In this document: one piece after another, positions 14,743 through 21,859 of the stretch | Layout: each line of letters opens with the position of its first letter | Numbering within the stretch: position 1 is the stretch's first letter | Assembly: GCA_003165235.1 (NCBI GenBank) | Contig: PLSV01000384.1 | Coordinates: forward strand, 2,481-60,407 | Source: Syntrophobacteraceae bacterium | Lineage (GTDB): Bacteria > Desulfobacterota > Syntrophobacteria > Syntrophobacterales > Syntrophobacteraceae | Direction: 5' to 3' | Length of the DNA: 57,927 nt | The notes under the pieces: generated by a model | Told to the model about the DNA's origin: nothing | Database searches by the model: none | Seen by the model: the letters and a program-made list of their open reading frames with translations, nothing else | Program-made: the position numbers and the translations under genes

Positions 14743-15132
14743 TCAGCCGTTCTTCTCAGTTGCCAGATATTGATCTATGGCCGCGAGCAACTCACGAGAT
14801 TGATCTATAACTTGACGCGCATCCTCTTCGCTGACCGCTTGGACTGCGCCATAATCGCCGACGTTTCTGAGTTCGAATGCGTTGAGAAGGTACCTGTGAA
14901 AACGGCTGTCGAAAGCGCCGGTCTTGACAAACTCTTTTCCGAAGGCAGCCATCACGCCGGAATGCCTGGAAAAGGAAAGTTCACGGGTCAACAGCAAGGC
15001 TTCCACTGCGTAGAACATAGAATAGTAGGCTCTACTTGCCGCGAAACTGAAGTAGCCTTCATTCAGGAGCAGTTCTGCAGCACGGATGCTCTGGAGCGAC
15101 TTATCCAAAAGTTCCCCGACAGCCTCTGTCAT
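14743..15132 (-). CDS. HEPN domain protein of a MNT/HEPN pair (UPF0332-like)
   Basis: A 129-residue, all-helical protein typical of HEPN partners in minimal nucleotidyltransferase toxin-antitoxin pairs. Marks are AELLLNEGYFSFAASRAYYSMFYAVEALL (helices 2-3), SRHSGVMAAFGKEFVK, and ELRNVGDYG near residue 95. The last replaces the RNase RxxxxxH motif with the RxxxDY form of the UPF0332 subgroup. Its start overlaps the nucleotidyltransferase stop by 4 bp (ATGA), so the genes are translationally coupled. The HEPN protein is usually the toxin, but that is family knowledge. Confidence 0.85.
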   Translation of the reverse strand: MTEAVGELLDKSLQSIRAAELLLNEGYFSFAASRAYYSMFYAVEALLLTRELSFSRHSGVMAAFGKEFVKTGAFDSRFHRYLLNAFELRNVGDYGAVQAVSEEDARQVIDQSRELLAAIDQYLATEKNG

Positions 15133-15461
15133 ATCCAGACCCCTTCCTTTCCAGCATTGAGAATAAGGGGGGTCTTCCTGGAATGGAACGTATCAAAATC
15201 CATGAGAACGATCGACAAAACGGTATCGTATTTGAGTGAGAGGTCACAAATTGCCGGGAAGATGCTCTCGCGTTCGGCAAGAGGATCGGCAAGATGGCTC
15301 AGCAACACCAATAAGTCGATATCCGACTCTTCTGTAAAATCCCCGCGGGCATAGGAGCCGAAAAGAACGATCCCCTTCAGGCGATGGGCGTATTGGGCGC
15401 TCAGCAACGCTTTTGCTTCAGCAAGCACCTTATCGATTTTTCGGGGCCGTTTTCTTGCCAT
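15129..15461 (-). CDS. MNT-type nucleotidyltransferase (antitoxin candidate)
   Basis: A 110-residue polymerase-beta-fold protein with the catalytic GSYARGDFTEESDIDLLVLL motif (GSxxRG...SDIDL) near residues 33-52. It ends soon after the core, as minimal nucleotidyltransferases do. In known pairs the MNT protein neutralises the HEPN partner by AMP transfer; here that is inferred. First gene of the two-gene unit. It lies just outside the left end of the tRNA-Pro element. Confidence 0.87.
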   Translation of the reverse strand: MARKRPRKIDKVLAEAKALLSAQYAHRLKGIVLFGSYARGDFTEESDIDLLVLLSHLADPLAERESIFPAICDLSLKYDTVLSIVLMDFDTFHSRKTPLILNAGKEGVWI

Positions 15462-15633
15462 CGGTGTGCTTCACCTTCATAAAAACTTCGTCAACTAATC
15501 GAACCAAGAATAATATAACAGGCAATTCTGCAGAAAATCCATCTGAAACGAAACAGGAGTCAAACCGGCAGTCCGGTAATACCATTCCCAAGGCAGGTTA
15601 TTGCACAGAGGATAAAGGAAAGCAATTTTTCTG

Positions 15634-15658
15634 ATCCGGACGACTGGATTCGAACCAG
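15634..15658 (+). repeat. attL-like direct repeat of the tRNA-Pro 3' end
   Basis: 25 bp matching 21438-21462 with one mismatch. It duplicates the T-arm and acceptor 3' part of tRNA-Pro(CGG). It marks the left junction of an integrated element. With the following TCGTCC it forms a perfect 10-bp stem around the TTCGAAT loop. Confidence 0.85.
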
Positions 15659-15697
15659 TCGTCCCAAGTCTAACCAACTGATTTTATTGGATGCTGT

Positions 15698-15724
15698 TGA
15701 CCCCTGACCCCCAATTGACCCCCC
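15698..15724 (+). repeat. GACCCCTGACCCC repeat near left end
   Basis: TGACCCCTGACCCCC followed by AATTGACCCCCC. It recurs in the same orientation at 21358-21386 with GG for AA. Three tandem TGACCCC-like units suggest a protein-binding array, perhaps integrase arm-type sites. Confidence 0.55.
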
Positions 15725-15911
15725 AAACCAGAGTGATTTAATAAAAGGCTTGACCTGTTGCATTTTATGCACCCGTATTATATACTGACCCGTGTCTCAG
15801 TTCGTGCTCTCAAGCAGAGGCGCTGCCTGGTTCCTCCTTTTTCGTTCTTCAAATGTCCATCCATGTCAATAAAGCGAGAAGGTGAAATGCTTAATTGGAA
15901 AGGAGAAGATC

Positions 15912-16574
15912 ATGAACTGGATTTTGTTCTACTATAATTCACTCCCTGATATGCCAGAAGGATGCAGTCTATTTTCATCAGATATTATGCACAGAGATTT
16001 ACTAATGTGCAACCCTAAAAATACTGGTCATTACAAGTATCCACGCTTTGAGGATTTTTCTTATGACGAAGGCTGCCATCGTAGAGAAGTTAATACTATT
16101 CTGAATAAGCGAGAATCCGAAATCTATGTAATCTTTTACACAAGAAACGTAGATTTATCTAAAAATTCCAGAAACAAGATTGTGGGCTACTTCAAGGTAG
16201 GACAATGCTTTCAAACACCCAAAAGGGGCTTTTTCTCTGCCGATACTGTACTTTTGCCGAAAAATAGGAGTATTCCAATTGACTATAGTTCAATAGGTGT
16301 GCCTGTAAGTTGGGGTAAATCCACCGTAAAACCAGAAATCGACAGGATTCTTCCCGGCCTAATAAACATGAAGGAGTTTGACATATCACTCAGGTATCAG
16401 AAAGAAACACAGAACATAATGAAAATGCTGAAAAGTCCATCTGGAAGAAAGTGGCTTATTGATAATTGCGAAGAATGTACAGTGCAAAGACAGTGCTATT
16501 GGGGCAAAAAGCCCAAGCAATCAAAGAAGAATAAACTACACGAGTTATATTCAAGAGACATTAGCACATGTTAG
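15912..16574 (+). CDS. unrecognised protein with C-terminal Cys cluster, partner of UDG-like gene
   Basis: A 220-residue protein not recognised by family. The ATG at 15912 follows AAGGAGAAGATC; an ATG at 15882 is also possible. Visible features are a mixed alpha/beta N-terminal half; a central segment EIYVIFYTRN then KIVGYFKVGQCF, whose strand pattern recalls PUA/EVE-type barrels (weak); and near the C-terminus DNCEECTVQRQCYWGKK, three closely spaced Cys plus one more that could hold zinc or an iron-sulfur cluster. The C-terminus is lysine-rich. The last 7 bp overlap the UDG-like gene, so the pair is one translational unit. A role in recognising modified DNA is speculation from context. Confidence 0.6.
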   Translation: MNWILFYYNSLPDMPEGCSLFSSDIMHRDLLMCNPKNTGHYKYPRFEDFSYDEGCHRREVNTILNKRESEIYVIFYTRNVDLSKNSRNKIVGYFKVGQCFQTPKRGFFSADTVLLPKNRSIPIDYSSIGVPVSWGKSTVKPEIDRILPGLINMKEFDISLRYQKETQNIMKMLKSPSGRKWLIDNCEECTVQRQCYWGKKPKQSKKNKLHELYSRDISTC

Positions 16575-17185
16575 AAAATCTACTACGCCAATTACATGAA
16601 AGAAGGTCGTCCGATACTGTGTGCAATCAGTATCATGATGTTGGTACCCTTAATAATTTACGGATATATCTTTCATATCTAACACGATTTACATCAGATA
16701 TTCTACTAGTTGGTGAGGCACCGGGTTATAGGGGATGTAGGATAACAGGTATACCGTTTACAAGCGGTGATGTAATAATGACTTCTAAACATGATATGTT
16801 TAAAGACTTTGGTAGCAATATCATATGCTACCCAGTTATGGCTGAACATACCGCAAAAATGTTATGGACTTTCCTAGAAGTTAACAACGCTGTACCAATC
16901 TTATGGAACGCATTTCCCTTCCATCCCCACCAAAGCAGGATACCAACAAGCAACAGGAAACCCAATGTTTCAGAAGTCAGAGAAGGTAATATTTATCTGA
17001 GGCTAATTTACGATTTGTTTAAGCCTAAAACGCTATGCTCTCTTGGTAGAGTAGGTGAGTCAGTATTAAAGGAGATGTTTCCTAATAGAGATATTATGTA
17101 TATACGGCATCCTTCGTACGGTGGAAAGAAAGATTTTATTGAAGGAATGAAAAAAGTGTATAAAAATATCCTGACACCAAGGTAA
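16568..17185 (+). CDS. uracil-DNA glycosylase superfamily protein
   Basis: A 205-residue protein with UDG-fold signatures. Motif A reads ILLVGEAPGYRGCRITGIPFTS (about residues 47-69; GEAPG and G-PFT of family 4/5 enzymes). NAFPFHPH lies in the middle, and a C-terminal RHPSYGG matches the HPS motif of the Leu-loop region. There is no four-Cys iron-sulfur pattern of family 4. The position after GEAPG is Y, R rather than the usual acid, so specificity may differ from plain uracil. It is coupled to the upstream Cys-cluster gene within a mobile island. A DNA-base excision or phage-defence role is an inference. Confidence 0.78.
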   Translation: MLENLLRQLHERRSSDTVCNQYHDVGTLNNLRIYLSYLTRFTSDILLVGEAPGYRGCRITGIPFTSGDVIMTSKHDMFKDFGSNIICYPVMAEHTAKMLWTFLEVNNAVPILWNAFPFHPHQSRIPTSNRKPNVSEVREGNIYLRLIYDLFKPKTLCSLGRVGESVLKEMFPNRDIMYIRHPSYGGKKDFIEGMKKVYKNILTPR

Positions 17186-17505
17186 TATCAATCCTGTCCC
17201 AGTAATTTAGTAGATTATAAAGTGTGTCCCAGGAGCGTTACAATCGTCCAAGTCGTGTATTCAGCCGAAGCCGAAGCGGATGGTGTGTGGGTCGAAGGTT
17301 ACTCATCTGAAATGCGGTGGTGATGGAGATTGGAAGTAGGTTGTCAGCAATTTTGAGATGGTTCAGCGGACAATTCGCAAAAACAGATGGTACGATCAGG
17401 TGTGTGAGTCATCGGTTGTAATTCGGCTCTGGTAGGCTGAGTTATGCCTTCCTGACACGATATCGCCGGTGGCACGGCGAAATTCAAACTTACCTTGCAT
17501 CGTCG
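17186..17505. other. intergenic region inside the element
   Basis: 320 bp between the UDG-like gene and the convergent HUH-type gene. Two copies of TGTCCCAG-like text occur near 17194 and 17225. No supported gene or RNA was seen. It may be decayed sequence. Confidence 0.4.
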
Positions 17506-17889
17506 TCATGACAAGGCTAACCGCAGCGCGTCCTCGGCAGAGTAAATAGTTCGCTTATGGCGGAGTTGTCTGAGAAGTTGCTGGTTAAAGAGCAGAACTT
17601 CCCAAGAATCTGGATTGTTCGCAGCCATATGGCTCTGGATATAGTAGTCGGCTCCAACTTCACTCCTTATTGGCTCCATTGTAGCCATTCCATGCCTCCA
17701 CTCTTTTTCCCATTTGTGGCCGTTCACATCCAATAAAGTTTTTCCGAATCTGTTCTTGCCAAGCATGAGCAGGTGGACATGCGCTTGAGTGTCGGTGGAG
17801 TAGACCACGCCGATATAGGCAATTTGGATAGCCTCCTGCTCGATTAGCGTTATCCTCCATTCAGCAACCCGCTCTGCTACATATTTCAT
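17506..17889 (-). CDS. HUH-type replication/relaxase-like protein, short
   Basis: A 127-residue protein with IAYIGVVYSTDTQAHVHLLMLG (HVH at about 37-39, the HUH metal motif of rolling-circle Rep proteins), a central W...GMATMEPIR segment, and VGADYYIQSHM with adjacent tyrosines where Rep proteins have the nicking Tyr. It lacks a helicase part and is short, so it may be a minimal Rep or a truncated one. It could supply replication or excision-transfer functions to the element. Base composition is nearer the host than that of the UDG pair. Confidence 0.55.
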   Translation of the reverse strand: MKYVAERVAEWRITLIEQEAIQIAYIGVVYSTDTQAHVHLLMLGKNRFGKTLLDVNGHKWEKEWRHGMATMEPIRSEVGADYYIQSHMAANNPDSWEVLLFNQQLLRQLRHKRTIYSAEDALRLALS

Positions 17890-18238
17890 ATTCCTTCTGC
17901 CAGCAAATGTCAGAGTAATAAATCGCTCAAATGGCTAATGGCTTAACTAGGGTGTTCTTTCCATAAATTCTTACCTCCTTATTAATAAGTGGCGATATCA
18001 AAAACATTATTAACGATATACCAAATGTATCACCACATACCAGTTATTAAATGTTTTATTAAATGCTATTTGTTAATTGTTTGTACTTTACAGTGTAAAG
18101 GACAAATGATACACCAATGAGACTAGAGTACATGGCTCCAATCAGTCACACATTATAAAATCTGGTGGCTGGTGTGAGTGACTGTATAAGCAGGTCGCCA
18201 CACCTACTAATACATCGCCATATTCACACCATGTTAGT
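17890..18238. other. AT-rich intergenic region inside the element
   Basis: About 350 bp, very AT-rich, with no supported ORF. It includes possible divergent promoter sequence upstream of the HUH-type gene and could hold an origin. Repeated AAATGTTTTATTAAATGC-like text is present near 18046-18070. Confidence 0.4.
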
Positions 18239-18520
18239 TTATTGATTAATTGAAAATACATAATAAATATTGTCGATGAACTCTGGATCACATTCAGGGT
18301 CATATCTCCATGATAGTTGTGCCATAAATCCACATGGACATTCCACATAATAGCAATTGCGATAACCAAGAGTGTCATCATTGATACTAATGAATATAGA
18401 TGCTTTGTGTTGAGGATTTTTCTCACATGGACGATACCCTATCAATTGTTTATACACATGAATTCCTTTCGTTAAATAAGATGGTAAGTGCTTTTTCCAT
18501 ATGTATAGGCATACAATCAA
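18239..18520 (-). CDS. small Cys-containing hypothetical protein
   Basis: A 93-residue frame with YRPCEKNPQH, then YRNCYYVECPCGFMAQ. The second half resembles the C-terminal knuckle of Lar-like zinc-ribbon proteins (YxVxCxxCG), but the first knuckle is incomplete. Not recognised with certainty. Competing frames overlap at 18142-18426 (minus) and 18400-18711 (plus). The codon use of this frame is AT-rich like the element. Confidence 0.35.
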   Translation of the reverse strand: MIVCLYIWKKHLPSYLTKGIHVYKQLIGYRPCEKNPQHKASIFISINDDTLGYRNCYYVECPCGFMAQLSWRYDPECDPEFIDNIYYVFSINQ

Positions 18521-18755
18521 TGCCTGTCATCTACCTAGACAATTGTGCTTCGGACGTTTTAAACCCATATTCGGCCAGTAGTAGACGCTTAATTTGCTAT
18601 AGCGTCAAACCTAATACCTTCTGGCGCTTATTCAAAACATGCTCTATCACTTCGATTGTTTCCATCATGCCTCCTTCGCAGGTGTATTCTTCATCATTTT
18701 ATTACTACTAATATTATTAATACTTAAATAAAACCTAATTGTGAAAGGATCACCC

Positions 18756-18965
18756 ATGGAAGAGAAAAAAAGATTACAGCCAATCGTTGAATCTCAGCGC
18801 AAGATCATCAACCTTAACCGGTTGGAGATAGAAAAATTAATGACTCAACTGGTCGGACAAGTAGTGTCCTTGTAGACCAAGAATTCAGCGCTGCCTTACG
18901 ACCAGCGCCGGGAATTGACGGTTAAAGTTTGTCGGTTGCTCCTTGGTATGCTTGGCGGTCAATAA
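18756..18965 (+). other. small ORF with an in-frame amber codon
   Basis: ATG at 18756 after AAAGGAT opens a 39-codon frame (MEEKKRLQPIVESQ..., charged and helical) ending in TAG at 18873. The same frame continues without a stop for 29 more codons (TKNSALPYDQRRELTVK, then a leucine-rich end) to TAA at 18963. The combined product would be about 69 residues. It could be a short gene, a gene broken by one nonsense change, or a readthrough gene. It precedes the serine recombinase. Confidence 0.4.
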
Positions 18966-19298
18966 CGATAAACTTACTGATACGGGACAGGTTAGTTAAT
19001 CCCGTCTGGCCGGGCGTAAAATTCCGCCCTTGAGTTTTAACTGTCTGGCCTCTGGCTACATTTTTTCTTCTTTTGGGAGATAACCCTGCATGACATTGTT
19101 ATGCGCCCGGCCTGACTAATCCCCTCCGCCCGGCGTCCGGCTCATCGCCGAATAAGAAAAGATATTATACCAATAAATGCAGCATCTTATCCATAATGTA
19201 GTGTTACATTCTACGGAATACAACAATATAAGTCTTGACAAACGCCGATGGAGCCTGTAGAAAGGAGGCAACGATAAACAAAAGGGAGCAAACGGGAC
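18966..19298. other. GC-rich hairpin region upstream of the serine recombinase
   Basis: 333 bp without a gene but with several inverted repeats: ACGGGA...TCCCGT near 18983-19005, GGGCG...CGCCC at 19012-19030, and a perfect GGCCGGGCG (19008-19016) with CGCCCGGCC (19104-19112). It stands out from the AT-rich surroundings. It could be a structured RNA, a terminator set or a recombination site. Confidence 0.45.
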
Positions 19299-19982
19299 AT
19301 GGAAGAGCGAATCAGAGCATATGCTTACATCCGAGTGAGCGGGAAATCCCAACTTACCGGGAATGGGTTCGACAGGCAGGAAGAAACGATACTGGCGTAT
19401 GCGGCAAAATCGGGTTACGAGATCGTGGAGGTATTCAAGGAAGAAGCAGTATCTGGTACTAAAGGCGAAGCCGACAGACCCGCTTTCCAAGAGATGATGA
19501 CCGCGATACTCCGTGATGGCATTAGGACAGTAATCATCGAAGGGTTGGACAGATTGGCTCGTGAATACCGTATTCAGGAAACCTTGCTCATATATTTAGC
19601 ATCAAAGGGGGTGACCCTGATATCTGCACGAACCGAAGAAGATGTGACCGAGGCGATTCACTCTGACCCCATGAGAAAGGCCCTTGTCCAAATCCAAGGG
19701 ATTTTTTCCGAACTGGAAAAGAATCTCCTCGTCAAGAAATTGCGGAATGCCCGTGAAAAAGTTCGCTCCGAGAAGGGCAAATGTGAAGGGCGGAAAGGCT
19801 ATATGGAATCTGAGCAGCATGAGGAACTGCTCAAAAGGATCAAGGAACTACGGCGCAAAAAACCCAAACAGAAAAGGATGACCTACCAACAGGTTGCCGA
19901 CAGACTGAATGAAGAAGGCTTTAAAACGGCGTCCGGCAAGCCATTCACGTCAATGATCGTGGTCAACTTGCTTAGGGCCTAA
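19299..19982 (+). CDS. serine recombinase (resolvase/invertase family)
   Basis: A 227-residue small serine recombinase. The N-terminal catalytic domain has YIRVSGKSQ (catalytic Ser at about residue 14), GFDRQEE, EAVSGTKGEADRPAFQEMM and VIIEGLDRLARE (Arg-rich active site). The C-terminal part has a basic linker and a helix-turn-helix-like TYQQVADRLNEEGFKTASGKPFT. It sits 95 bp upstream of the tyrosine integrase region in the element. It may resolve multimers or control an inversion. The target site is unknown. Confidence 0.92.
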   Translation: MEERIRAYAYIRVSGKSQLTGNGFDRQEETILAYAAKSGYEIVEVFKEEAVSGTKGEADRPAFQEMMTAILRDGIRTVIIEGLDRLAREYRIQETLLIYLASKGVTLISARTEEDVTEAIHSDPMRKALVQIQGIFSELEKNLLVKKLRNAREKVRSEKGKCEGRKGYMESEQHEELLKRIKELRRKKPKQKRMTYQQVADRLNEEGFKTASGKPFTSMIVVNLLRA

Positions 19983-20136
19983 AAAATTCCCGGCGACATC
20001 CCGATTTCACTCATTTCTTAAAACATATTTGACTTGTGGAAGCGATAACCAGTAACTCCACAAGGCTGATTTCAAAATGAGAACACGGGATGACCGCCAA
20101 CAATACAATCTTCCTCCAGGAGGAAAGGAGAGATGT

Positions 20137-21387
20137 ATGCTTGGTCGGATCAAAACGGATCAAACGTGTCCTGTGTGCGGTAGCAAGTTTCGGGATAACC
20201 ATGTAGATGGGCTGACATGCTCTAACCATCCCGACCAGTATGCTACCCGTTTTAAACTGAAATTCAGGAAGGACGGTAAAGAAATTTGTAGGAGGTATAG
20301 GTCATACACGGATGCAACGGATGACCTGACCGGATTCAGGTTTAAGGTGAATGAGAACACTTTTGATTTTCGGGACTACCAAACCTCGAACCCGCTTTCT
20401 TTTTCAAACTTAGCAGACCAGTACATTGCGAAAAACCCAAACAAAGTTGATTATAAGCAGTTGAACAACATCAAAAGTTTCTTGGATAGAGCGAAGGAAG
20501 AATGGAAAGATCGGAACATCAAGACCATCAAATACGCCGATATTGAAGATTTTTTGGACAAGCAGAGAAAACTTTGCGACAAAGATAAACCCTTGGGAGA
20601 ACGGAGGGATATTGCCGGTAAAACACGCCATGAGATTAATTCATGCCTCCGTTGTTTCTGGAGATGGGTCACAAGGCGTGTAGAACTTAAGCCTCATGAA
20701 ATACCAATGTTTCCGACTGTCGCGTATGAACTTGGATGGCGAAATATCGTGGAAAAGGAGATTCAAGAATCCATACTTGACGAGGTATATAGGATTTCGC
20801 ACCACATAAACTCCAAAATCTACATTGGGATACGATGGCTGGCGACCTACATTGCTTTTCGCCCTGCTGAACTGCTATCCATCCTGGAAAGAGACATCTT
20901 CATTGCCGGTGGCTTCATTGCGATCAGAGACTCCAAGGCGATGAAAAGTGAGGGGAAACCAAAACCCATTCCGTTGACTGATGAGGATTTGGAGATGCTC
21001 AGGTCATCTTCAGTGCGGGGTCTCCATGACCTGCCGTTCTTCCGCCACAATGAAGCATCGGCAAAACGTGGGGGCGGCAAGAAAGCAAAGGCAGGGGACG
21101 TGTTCGGGAAAAAGTACCTTTATAGGTGGTGGAAGCGGGCATGCAAGAACTTGGGCATCAAGGATGTTGACCTTTATGGAGGGACAAAGCATTCTTCTGC
21201 TACGGCGCTGGCGGATTATTTTTCACCTGAACAGATCATCAAAGCAACCATGCACGAAACGAATGACGCTTTTAAACGGTACTGCCAAGTACGGCCAGAA
21301 CACGTGAAAAAAATTTATGAGCATACGAGAAAGAAAAAGGGACAACCCGACCAGAGACTGACCCCTGACCCCCGGTTGACCCCCTAA
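20137..21387 (+). CDS. tyrosine recombinase (integrase) of the tRNA-Pro element
   Basis: A 416-residue integrase. The N-terminus carries a zinc-knuckle-like CPVCGSKF...CSNHPD. A SAM-like core-binding domain spans about 110-200. The catalytic domain has AFRPAELLSI (first Arg), a Lys-bearing RDSKAMKSEGKPKPIPL beta-hairpin, YGGTKHSSATAL (His; the second Arg of the usual HxxR is not visible at the standard place), MHETNDAFKRYCQV (His and nucleophile Tyr). The ATG at 20137 follows GGAGGAAAGGAG. Its C-terminal codons (RLTPDPRLTP) are written by the TGACCCC repeat. It lies next to the intact tRNA-Pro, its likely target. Confidence 0.9.
   Translation: MLGRIKTDQTCPVCGSKFRDNHVDGLTCSNHPDQYATRFKLKFRKDGKEICRRYRSYTDATDDLTGFRFKVNENTFDFRDYQTSNPLSFSNLADQYIAKNPNKVDYKQLNNIKSFLDRAKEEWKDRNIKTIKYADIEDFLDKQRKLCDKDKPLGERRDIAGKTRHEINSCLRCFWRWVTRRVELKPHEIPMFPTVAYELGWRNIVEKEIQESILDEVYRISHHINSKIYIGIRWLATYIAFRPAELLSILERDIFIAGGFIAIRDSKAMKSEGKPKPIPLTDEDLEMLRSSSVRGLHDLPFFRHNEASAKRGGGKKAKAGDVFGKKYLYRWWKRACKNLGIKDVDLYGGTKHSSATALADYFSPEQIIKATMHETNDAFKRYCQVRPEHVKKIYEHTRKKKGQPDQRLTPDPRLTP
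21358..21386 (+). repeat. GACCCCTGACCCC repeat near right end
   Basis: CTGACCCCTGACCCCC followed by GGTTGACCCCC, matching 15698-15724 in the same orientation. It overlaps the last integrase codons and ends about 50 bp from the attR repeat. Confidence 0.55.
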
Positions 21388-21437: not shown

Positions 21438-21462
21438 ATCGGGACGACTGGATTCGAACCAG
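21438..21462 (+). repeat. attR-like direct repeat
   Basis: 25 bp, the 3' portion of the intact tRNA-Pro gene, repeated at 15634-15658 with one mismatch. It marks the right junction of the element. Confidence 0.85.
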
Positions 21463-21512
21463 CGACCTCTGCGTCCCGAACGCAGCGCTCTACCAAGCTG
21501 AGCCACGTCCCG
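21439..21512 (-). tRNA. tRNA-Pro (anticodon CGG)
   Basis: A cloverleaf is readable on the minus strand. The 7-bp acceptor CGGGACG/CGTCCCG is perfect, the D-arm is GCTC/GAGC, the anticodon stem CTGCG/CGCAG encloses loop TTCGGGA with anticodon CGG, and the T-arm is GCTGG-TTCGAAT-CCAGT. The discriminator is A. The CCA end is not encoded. Its 3' half is the integration target of the adjacent element. Confidence 0.95.
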
Positions 21513-21859
21513 ATCTAATCGTGCCGTTTATTTATCAAAATTCCCCTACCCTGTCCACATTCTTTTGGATTGAGAAAAACCCGGAGATCGATCTCAGTGG
21601 AACAATTCAGCATGCAAAGTCGTGCTTGAGGCGCAACAGACCATTATCTTCAATAAAAGGGGCAAGAAGCAGAAGCAGGAAGCGGGAAGGAAGGACGGTT
21701 TTTTAACCCTGTTTCAGCAGGGTGATAAGAAACGGTTCTCTGGTGGGAGAAACGCGTGAACGTTGATGTTGGACTTCCAATCCTTTTTCATCGCCCTGTT
21801 GAGGCCTCACACTGCTCTTTCTTTGCTCCCCGCTTCCTGCTTCCTGGAAGGAGATAAAT
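21513..21859. other. intergenic region between tRNA-Pro and channel gene
   Basis: 347 bp that should hold the tRNA promoter (minus strand) and the channel promoter. ACCCTG-TTTCAG-CAGGGT near 21705-21723 is a short hairpin without a U-tract. No gene was seen. Confidence 0.4.

Follow-up and report, generated by a model that had tools for sequence, protein, structure and literature searches.

The window, a 57,927-nucleotide stretch of the genome of a Syntrophobacteraceae bacterium, carries two overlapping genes for a cysteine-rich protein (p1) and a UDG-superfamily glycosylase, and this two-gene module, which is real, conserved, and mobile, also occurs in two archaea. Our best explanation, held at slightly less than even chances, is that they form a cross-domain accessory pair, in which a SMUG1-like glycosylase acts with its partner p1 and whose value likely lies in the destruction of viral or foreign DNA. 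The p1 gene (15912..16574, plus strand) extends from an ATG at 15912 to a TAG at 16574, has a good ribosome-binding site, and encodes 220 residues. The glycosylase gene (16568..17185, plus strand; ATG at 16568, TAA at 17185) encodes a SMUG1-like, Fe-S-free protein of 205 residues. The ORF calls thus reproduce the 7 bp overlap described in the initial annotation, which has the sequence ATGTTAG (16568..16574, plus strand). A p1 gene coupled to the same glycosylase gene was found in a Methanophagales MAG (G310, locus L016; p1 identity of 59%, 19 bp overlap) and in a genome from another class of the same archaeal phylum (G316, locus L104; p1 identity of 56%, 7 bp overlap), so that the association of p1 with a UDG-like gene is not confined to the window. 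These are three instances in total, all in draft genomes, and almost all relatives of the host organisms lack the pair. Between the window and the archaea, the identity of both genes is 38–45% at third codon positions and 79–80% at second positions. This bias, together with the conservation, indicates that neither ORF is a chance reading frame, and the codon-position pattern indicates that both genes are under purifying selection. The neighborhoods of the window pair and of both archaeal pairs showed no known defense gene, the PADLOC models gave no match for the window pair, and Rfam searches returned nothing at the archaeal pair loci.

In the window, the pair resides in an element of approximately 5.8 kb integrated at a tRNA-Pro (CGG) gene (21438..21513, minus strand), which was located with ARAGORN. 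The element is delimited by 25-nt direct repeats with a 96% match: attL (15634..15658) is a copy of the tRNA 3' end, and attR (21438..21462) is the intact 3' end. It contains a serine recombinase (resolvase) gene (19299..19982, plus strand; PF00239, E 2.6e-28) and, adjoining the tRNA, a tyrosine-integrase-like ORF (20077..21387, plus strand; Pfam Phage_integrase E 0.034, below the cut-off). Since the region 17186–19298 holds only small doubtful ORFs, p1 and the glycosylase are the main cargo of the element, as had been proposed. The G+C content is approximately 38% over the two genes versus roughly 50–60% beyond the element. A repeat search also detected 29-nt direct repeats (TGACCCCTGACCCCC...) immediately inside the left end (15698..15726) and the right end (21359..21387, 90% identical to the left copy), which are possible integrase arm sites. 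A 127-residue ORF on the minus strand (17506–17889) contains an HVHLL motif and weakly matches REP_ORF2-G2P (E 0.0038, below the cut-off); it may be a relic of a rolling-circle element or an HUH-type replication protein. Just beyond the left end of the element lies a HEPN and nucleotidyltransferase (MNT) gene pair (14743–15461, minus strand) in a typical toxin–antitoxin arrangement.

The assignment of the second protein to the UDG superfamily in the initial annotation is borne out by a match to the Pfam UDG profile PF03167 (35.1 bits against a cut-off of 24.3; E 1.6e-8) and by the motifs GEAPG (residues 49–53), GIPFTS (61–66), and HPS (181–183). The reported lack of the family 4 iron-sulfur cysteines holds as well: the protein scores 30 bits against the family 4 model TIGR00758, under its cut-off of 125.3, and the Fe-S cysteine columns are absent from an alignment of 69 glycosylase sequences, in which the sole common cysteine column is C57 in motif I. 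An AlphaFold2 model built from these 69 sequences (pLDDT 96.2) adopts the UDG α/β fold, and its best PDB matches all belong to the UDG superfamily. The model aligns with SMUG1 over 192 residues (Z 19.2, rmsd 2.6), with SMUG2 at Z 17.1, and with a family 4 UDG over 155 residues (Z 16.0). SMUG1 and SMUG2 (family 3), both of which lack an Fe-S cluster, thus provide the closest fold over the whole chain. Since the nearest fold, SMUG1, has no Fe-S cluster, the missing cysteines are expected. SMUG1 is characterized by the motif I sequence GMNPG, a TG-x-PF motif, an Asn in the pocket strand, and HP(S). The window protein shares the last three of these features, but its motif I is GEAPG, of the family 4 type, and its identity to SMUG1 and SMUG2 is 16–20%. 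With the family 4 UDGs it shares GEAPG, the NR-x-P motif, and HPS, but it lacks their Fe-S cysteines and stays below the TIGR00758 cut-off. From its motifs and predicted fold, the protein is best described as a family-4-like motif I on a SMUG1-like body.

Across the 69 relatives, Glu50, His119, Asn129-Arg130, and Arg180-His181-Pro182 are invariant, and the pocket residue Asn114 of the window protein is kept in 66, although the conservation of GEAPGY and WNA-x-x-HP is somewhat inflated because the scan patterns partly select for these two motifs. The alignment and the model indicate that the catalytic core is intact. The pocket residue is informative about the substrate. In Brig1 and Brig3, anti-T4 glycosylases that act on cytosine-type bases, the position equivalent to Asn82 of family 4 is occupied by Glu147 and, on our reading, Asp127, respectively, whereas the window protein keeps an Asn, Asn114 being equated with these residues by motif order rather than by side-chain superposition. 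The retained Asn therefore points to a uracil- or thymine-type base as the substrate instead of hydroxymethylcytosine, and the hydroxymethyl- or glucosyl-cytosine DNA that had been suggested as a target is unlikely.

The partner p1 represents an orphan family of cysteine-rich proteins, as judged from sequence comparisons. Searches against Pfam, NCBIfam, PHROGs, PADLOC, and the PDB assigned it to no family and returned sub-threshold matches only, consistent with its earlier description as unrecognized. A match to HTH_36 in a p1 homolog (residues 36–62; E 0.0015, 18.8 bits against a cut-off of 25) was not accepted. Alignment of the three copies revealed invariant cysteines at C18, C33, C55, C186-x2-C189-x5-C195, and C220. 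The C-terminal CEEC...C cluster, which had already attracted notice, reads CEECTVQRQC, and its three cysteines are invariant in the three homologs. These invariant cysteines fit a metal or Fe-S site. The C-x2-C-x5-C spacing with a cysteine upstream recalls the arrangement of Fe-S ligands in Cas4-type nucleases; a Cas4 profile gave no match to p1. The AlphaFold2 model of p1, built from two sequences, reached a pLDDT of 34 and contains no usable fold, and the nucleobase-binding barrel or base-recognition domain previously envisaged for this protein is accordingly not confirmed. No homologs were found in viral contigs, phages, or plasmids, and several hundred genomes, mostly from the Desulfobacterota-like kin of the window, from the archaeal phylum, and from that of the Nitrospiraceae, yielded none beyond the three copies. 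A peptide scan of genome contigs was also negative, which is a weak result because its exact patterns missed the L016 copy too. Among the weak p1-profile matches, L107 and L111, which read as gyrase B, and L114, a chance match, were rejected as homologs.

The glycosylase itself is far more widespread than p1. A genome scan identified 248 relatives among 389 candidates, of which the best 80 were retained; the hosts include marine Gammaproteobacteria, Campylobacterota, Bacteroidota, and Chloroflexota, among others. Most of the relatives examined from the best 80 of the 248 are stand-alone chromosomal genes in ordinary neighborhoods with no visible defense neighbors. Taken overall, then, this is not a defense-island family. 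In the phylogenetic tree, the window protein and its three nearest rows (L015, L016, and L104) form a clade (94/96), and p1 is present in three of the four. The pairing is therefore old within this clade, and p1 was either lost or never gained in L015, a Nitrospiraceae gene that is the closest relative without p1 and lies in an ordinary chromosomal setting. Some relatives are located on plasmids and virus-classed contigs. Two on alphaproteobacterial plasmids (L005, 1799–4546; L008, 2715–4591) have an altered motif I, RDLGYRGG, and lie beside a gene for a MazG-like pyrophosphohydrolase, with a dCTP deaminase gene also near the relative in L005. This arrangement of a glycosylase with a MazG-like protein is possibly another glycosylase-based system; the MazG-like protein and the dCTP deaminase were rejected as counterparts of p1, being different partners. 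On a virus-classed IMG/VR contig (L009, 3091–5630), a 41%-identical glycosylase gene directly follows a primase/exonuclease-like gene in an apparent replication module.

Prokaryotic immunity has only recently been extended to glycosylases that remove bases from viral DNA, and BapA is the one partner protein that we found described in the literature for them. The brig3-bapA operon consists of overlapping genes for a glycosylase and its partner and was found in a defense island (PMC13160076). By description, the window pair resembles it in being an overlapping operon that joins a UDG-superfamily glycosylase to a partner of a different family, but the gene order is reversed, with p1 first. Brig2 is described as acting on modified thymine (Getz et al. 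2025, as cited in PMC13160076), and at the level of that description the retained Asn would allow the window protein the same base class; the two could be related. The pair is of a type akin to the Brig systems, with a partner from an orphan family and probably a different base.

In the mechanism that we favor, the product of the second gene would be an active DNA glycosylase, SMUG1-like and free of Fe-S, which leaves abasic sites after flipping out uracil or 5-substituted uracil/thymine. p1 would be a dedicated, co-translated partner whose most likely task is either to prepare or unmask a modified base, the role of BapA toward Brig3, or to guide the glycosylase. The pair would be mobilized as an integron-type cassette in the two archaea and by the tRNA-Pro element in the bacterium, and its selective value would most likely lie, as with Brig2, in destroying viral or foreign DNA that contains bases of the uracil type or modified thymine. 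The reading as defense is plausible and takes about half of our confidence, against about one third for repair. It draws on the brig3-bapA precedent, the action of Brig2 on modified thymine, the mobility and patchy distribution of the pair, and the abundance of anti-phage functions in integron cassettes, of which approximately 10% are anti-phage in Vibrio cholerae (PMC12409362). The repair-like fold, the stand-alone relatives, and the lack of defense neighbors count against it. The initial proposal of a base-excision pair is retained in part: the intact catalytic core, the mobility, and the recurrence of the same coupled partner uphold it, while the base-recognition role given to p1 has found no corresponding domain.

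The main alternative, less probable but serious, casts the pair as an accessory of base-excision repair. The glycosylase would clear uracil, 5-hydroxymethyluracil, or some similar lesion from the DNA of the host or the element, p1 would act at abasic sites as a factor for loading or handling, and the mobility would be incidental. The spread of the family as single chromosomal genes among ordinary genes, its sharing of the fold of a repair enzyme, SMUG1, and the relative beside replication genes on the virus-classed contig are all consistent with such a role. However, core repair functions are not expected to travel on two unrelated kinds of mobile element while missing from nearly all relatives of their hosts, and repair glycosylases do not usually come with a dedicated partner that is translated alongside them.

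The archaeal copies differ from the window copy in their genetic vehicle. An inverted-repeat site lies directly 3' of the glycosylase stop codon in both archaeal loci, and L016 has another before p1. Sites of this type are located at 1827–1914 in L016 and at 2757–2838 in L104. Within 20 kb around L016, a core-plus-arm scan detected just the two sites of the pair at a score of at least 14 (four hits, counting both strands) against 0.13 expected hits. An attC covariance model was built from four sites. With matches counted at E ≤ 1, most being far lower, the Methanophagales MAG yielded 25 sites and G316 yielded 17, compared with none in the 7-Mb genome of the window and none in G309. The sites have AAC...GTT cores with complementary inner arms that covary: 27 distinct rows contain 70 both-side changes versus 28.9 after shuffling, and slid controls collapse, although an alignment fitted to the structure, such as this one, leans in favor of covariation. 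For 18 of 26 sites, the start falls between 25 nt upstream and 60 nt downstream of an ORF stop, compared with 21% at random places (P 1.7e-7), and L016 contains three such sites in succession between genes. In the alignment of the two archaeal copies, the likeness begins at the integron crossover position (G|TTATGC and G|TTAAGC) and continues into a common leader, GAAATGGCTAACAAG. GTTAAGC and the R'' box GCTTAAC, located 3' of the L104 gene pair, are exact reverse complements of each other, and GTTATGC departs from the strict G|TTRRRY consensus at one position. The archaeal pair, bounded by integron-type attC sites, thus looks like an integron-type gene cassette, with the same pair carried by a tRNA-Pro element in the bacterium. 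No attC site was detected within 15600–17700, and none that is credible was found in the whole window; the p1 leader there (15882..15911, plus strand) bears a weak resemblance, upon alignment, to the 5' leader (GCGAAATGGCTAACAAG...) that the archaeal cassettes carry. The bacterium therefore holds the pair by another vehicle.

Archaeal integrons and CALINs, as reported in PMC9668308, comprise attC-type sites with cassettes in archaeal MAGs, mostly without IntI, and the same report describes the use of archaeal attC sites by the bacterial integrase IntI1. The sites beside our pairs agree with that account in being attC-type sites with cassettes, but they are scattered; the available portion of PMC9668308 makes no mention of a two-gene glycosylase cassette. 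No integron integrase above the cut-off was found in either archaeal draft genome, both of which may be incomplete, and the best matches are XerC-like. Sub-cut-off matches to TIGR02249 occur in 14 of 14 control genomes and therefore represent generic tyrosine recombinases. The lack of an IntI match above the cut-off and the scattering of the sites over the G316 chromosome, rather than in one array, would suit a different view, in which the sites are another dispersed family of inverted repeats and the pair is an ordinary archaeal chromosomal operon. We consider this view unlikely: it is at odds with the AAC...GTT cores and their covarying arms, the positions just after ORF stops, an alignment that breaks at the canonical G|TTRRRY position, and the three successive sites in L016.

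Least likely of all is a role in element biology, whereby the pair would attack rival elements or shield the single-stranded intermediates that its own element forms in recombination or replication; its place in an integrative element with a possible HUH-type relic and in cassettes that recombine through single strands, and the plasmid and virus-classed relatives, would agree with this idea, but the pair has no tie to a particular element type and the stand-alone homologs need no element.

The cross-domain, integron-type carriage of the pair is the most unexpected part. If the preferred reading is correct, the pair would provide a concrete case of sharing between domains through integron-type sites, and glycosylase immunity would gain in chemical breadth from a second partner, here one that belongs to a uracil-type glycosylase. 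A bolder version, which we regard as doubtful, would make the pair a base-excision immunity module that circulates as an archaeal integron-type cassette shared with bacteria, with p1 founding a family that remodels or presents modified thymine or uracil, and with the scattered sites used without a classical IntI, perhaps by XerC-like recombinases. The XerC-like recombinases of G310 and G316 could act on the attC-type sites. Other genes beside the archaeal sites include those for a DNA methylase and an HNH protein. The XerC-like tyrosine recombinases of the two archaea (L118, G310:C85:4-810; L120/L128, G316:C1:1063851-1064641) share an unusual N-terminal FPYNP...W region, and the gene in G316 lies approximately 550 bp from an attC-type site (1065189).
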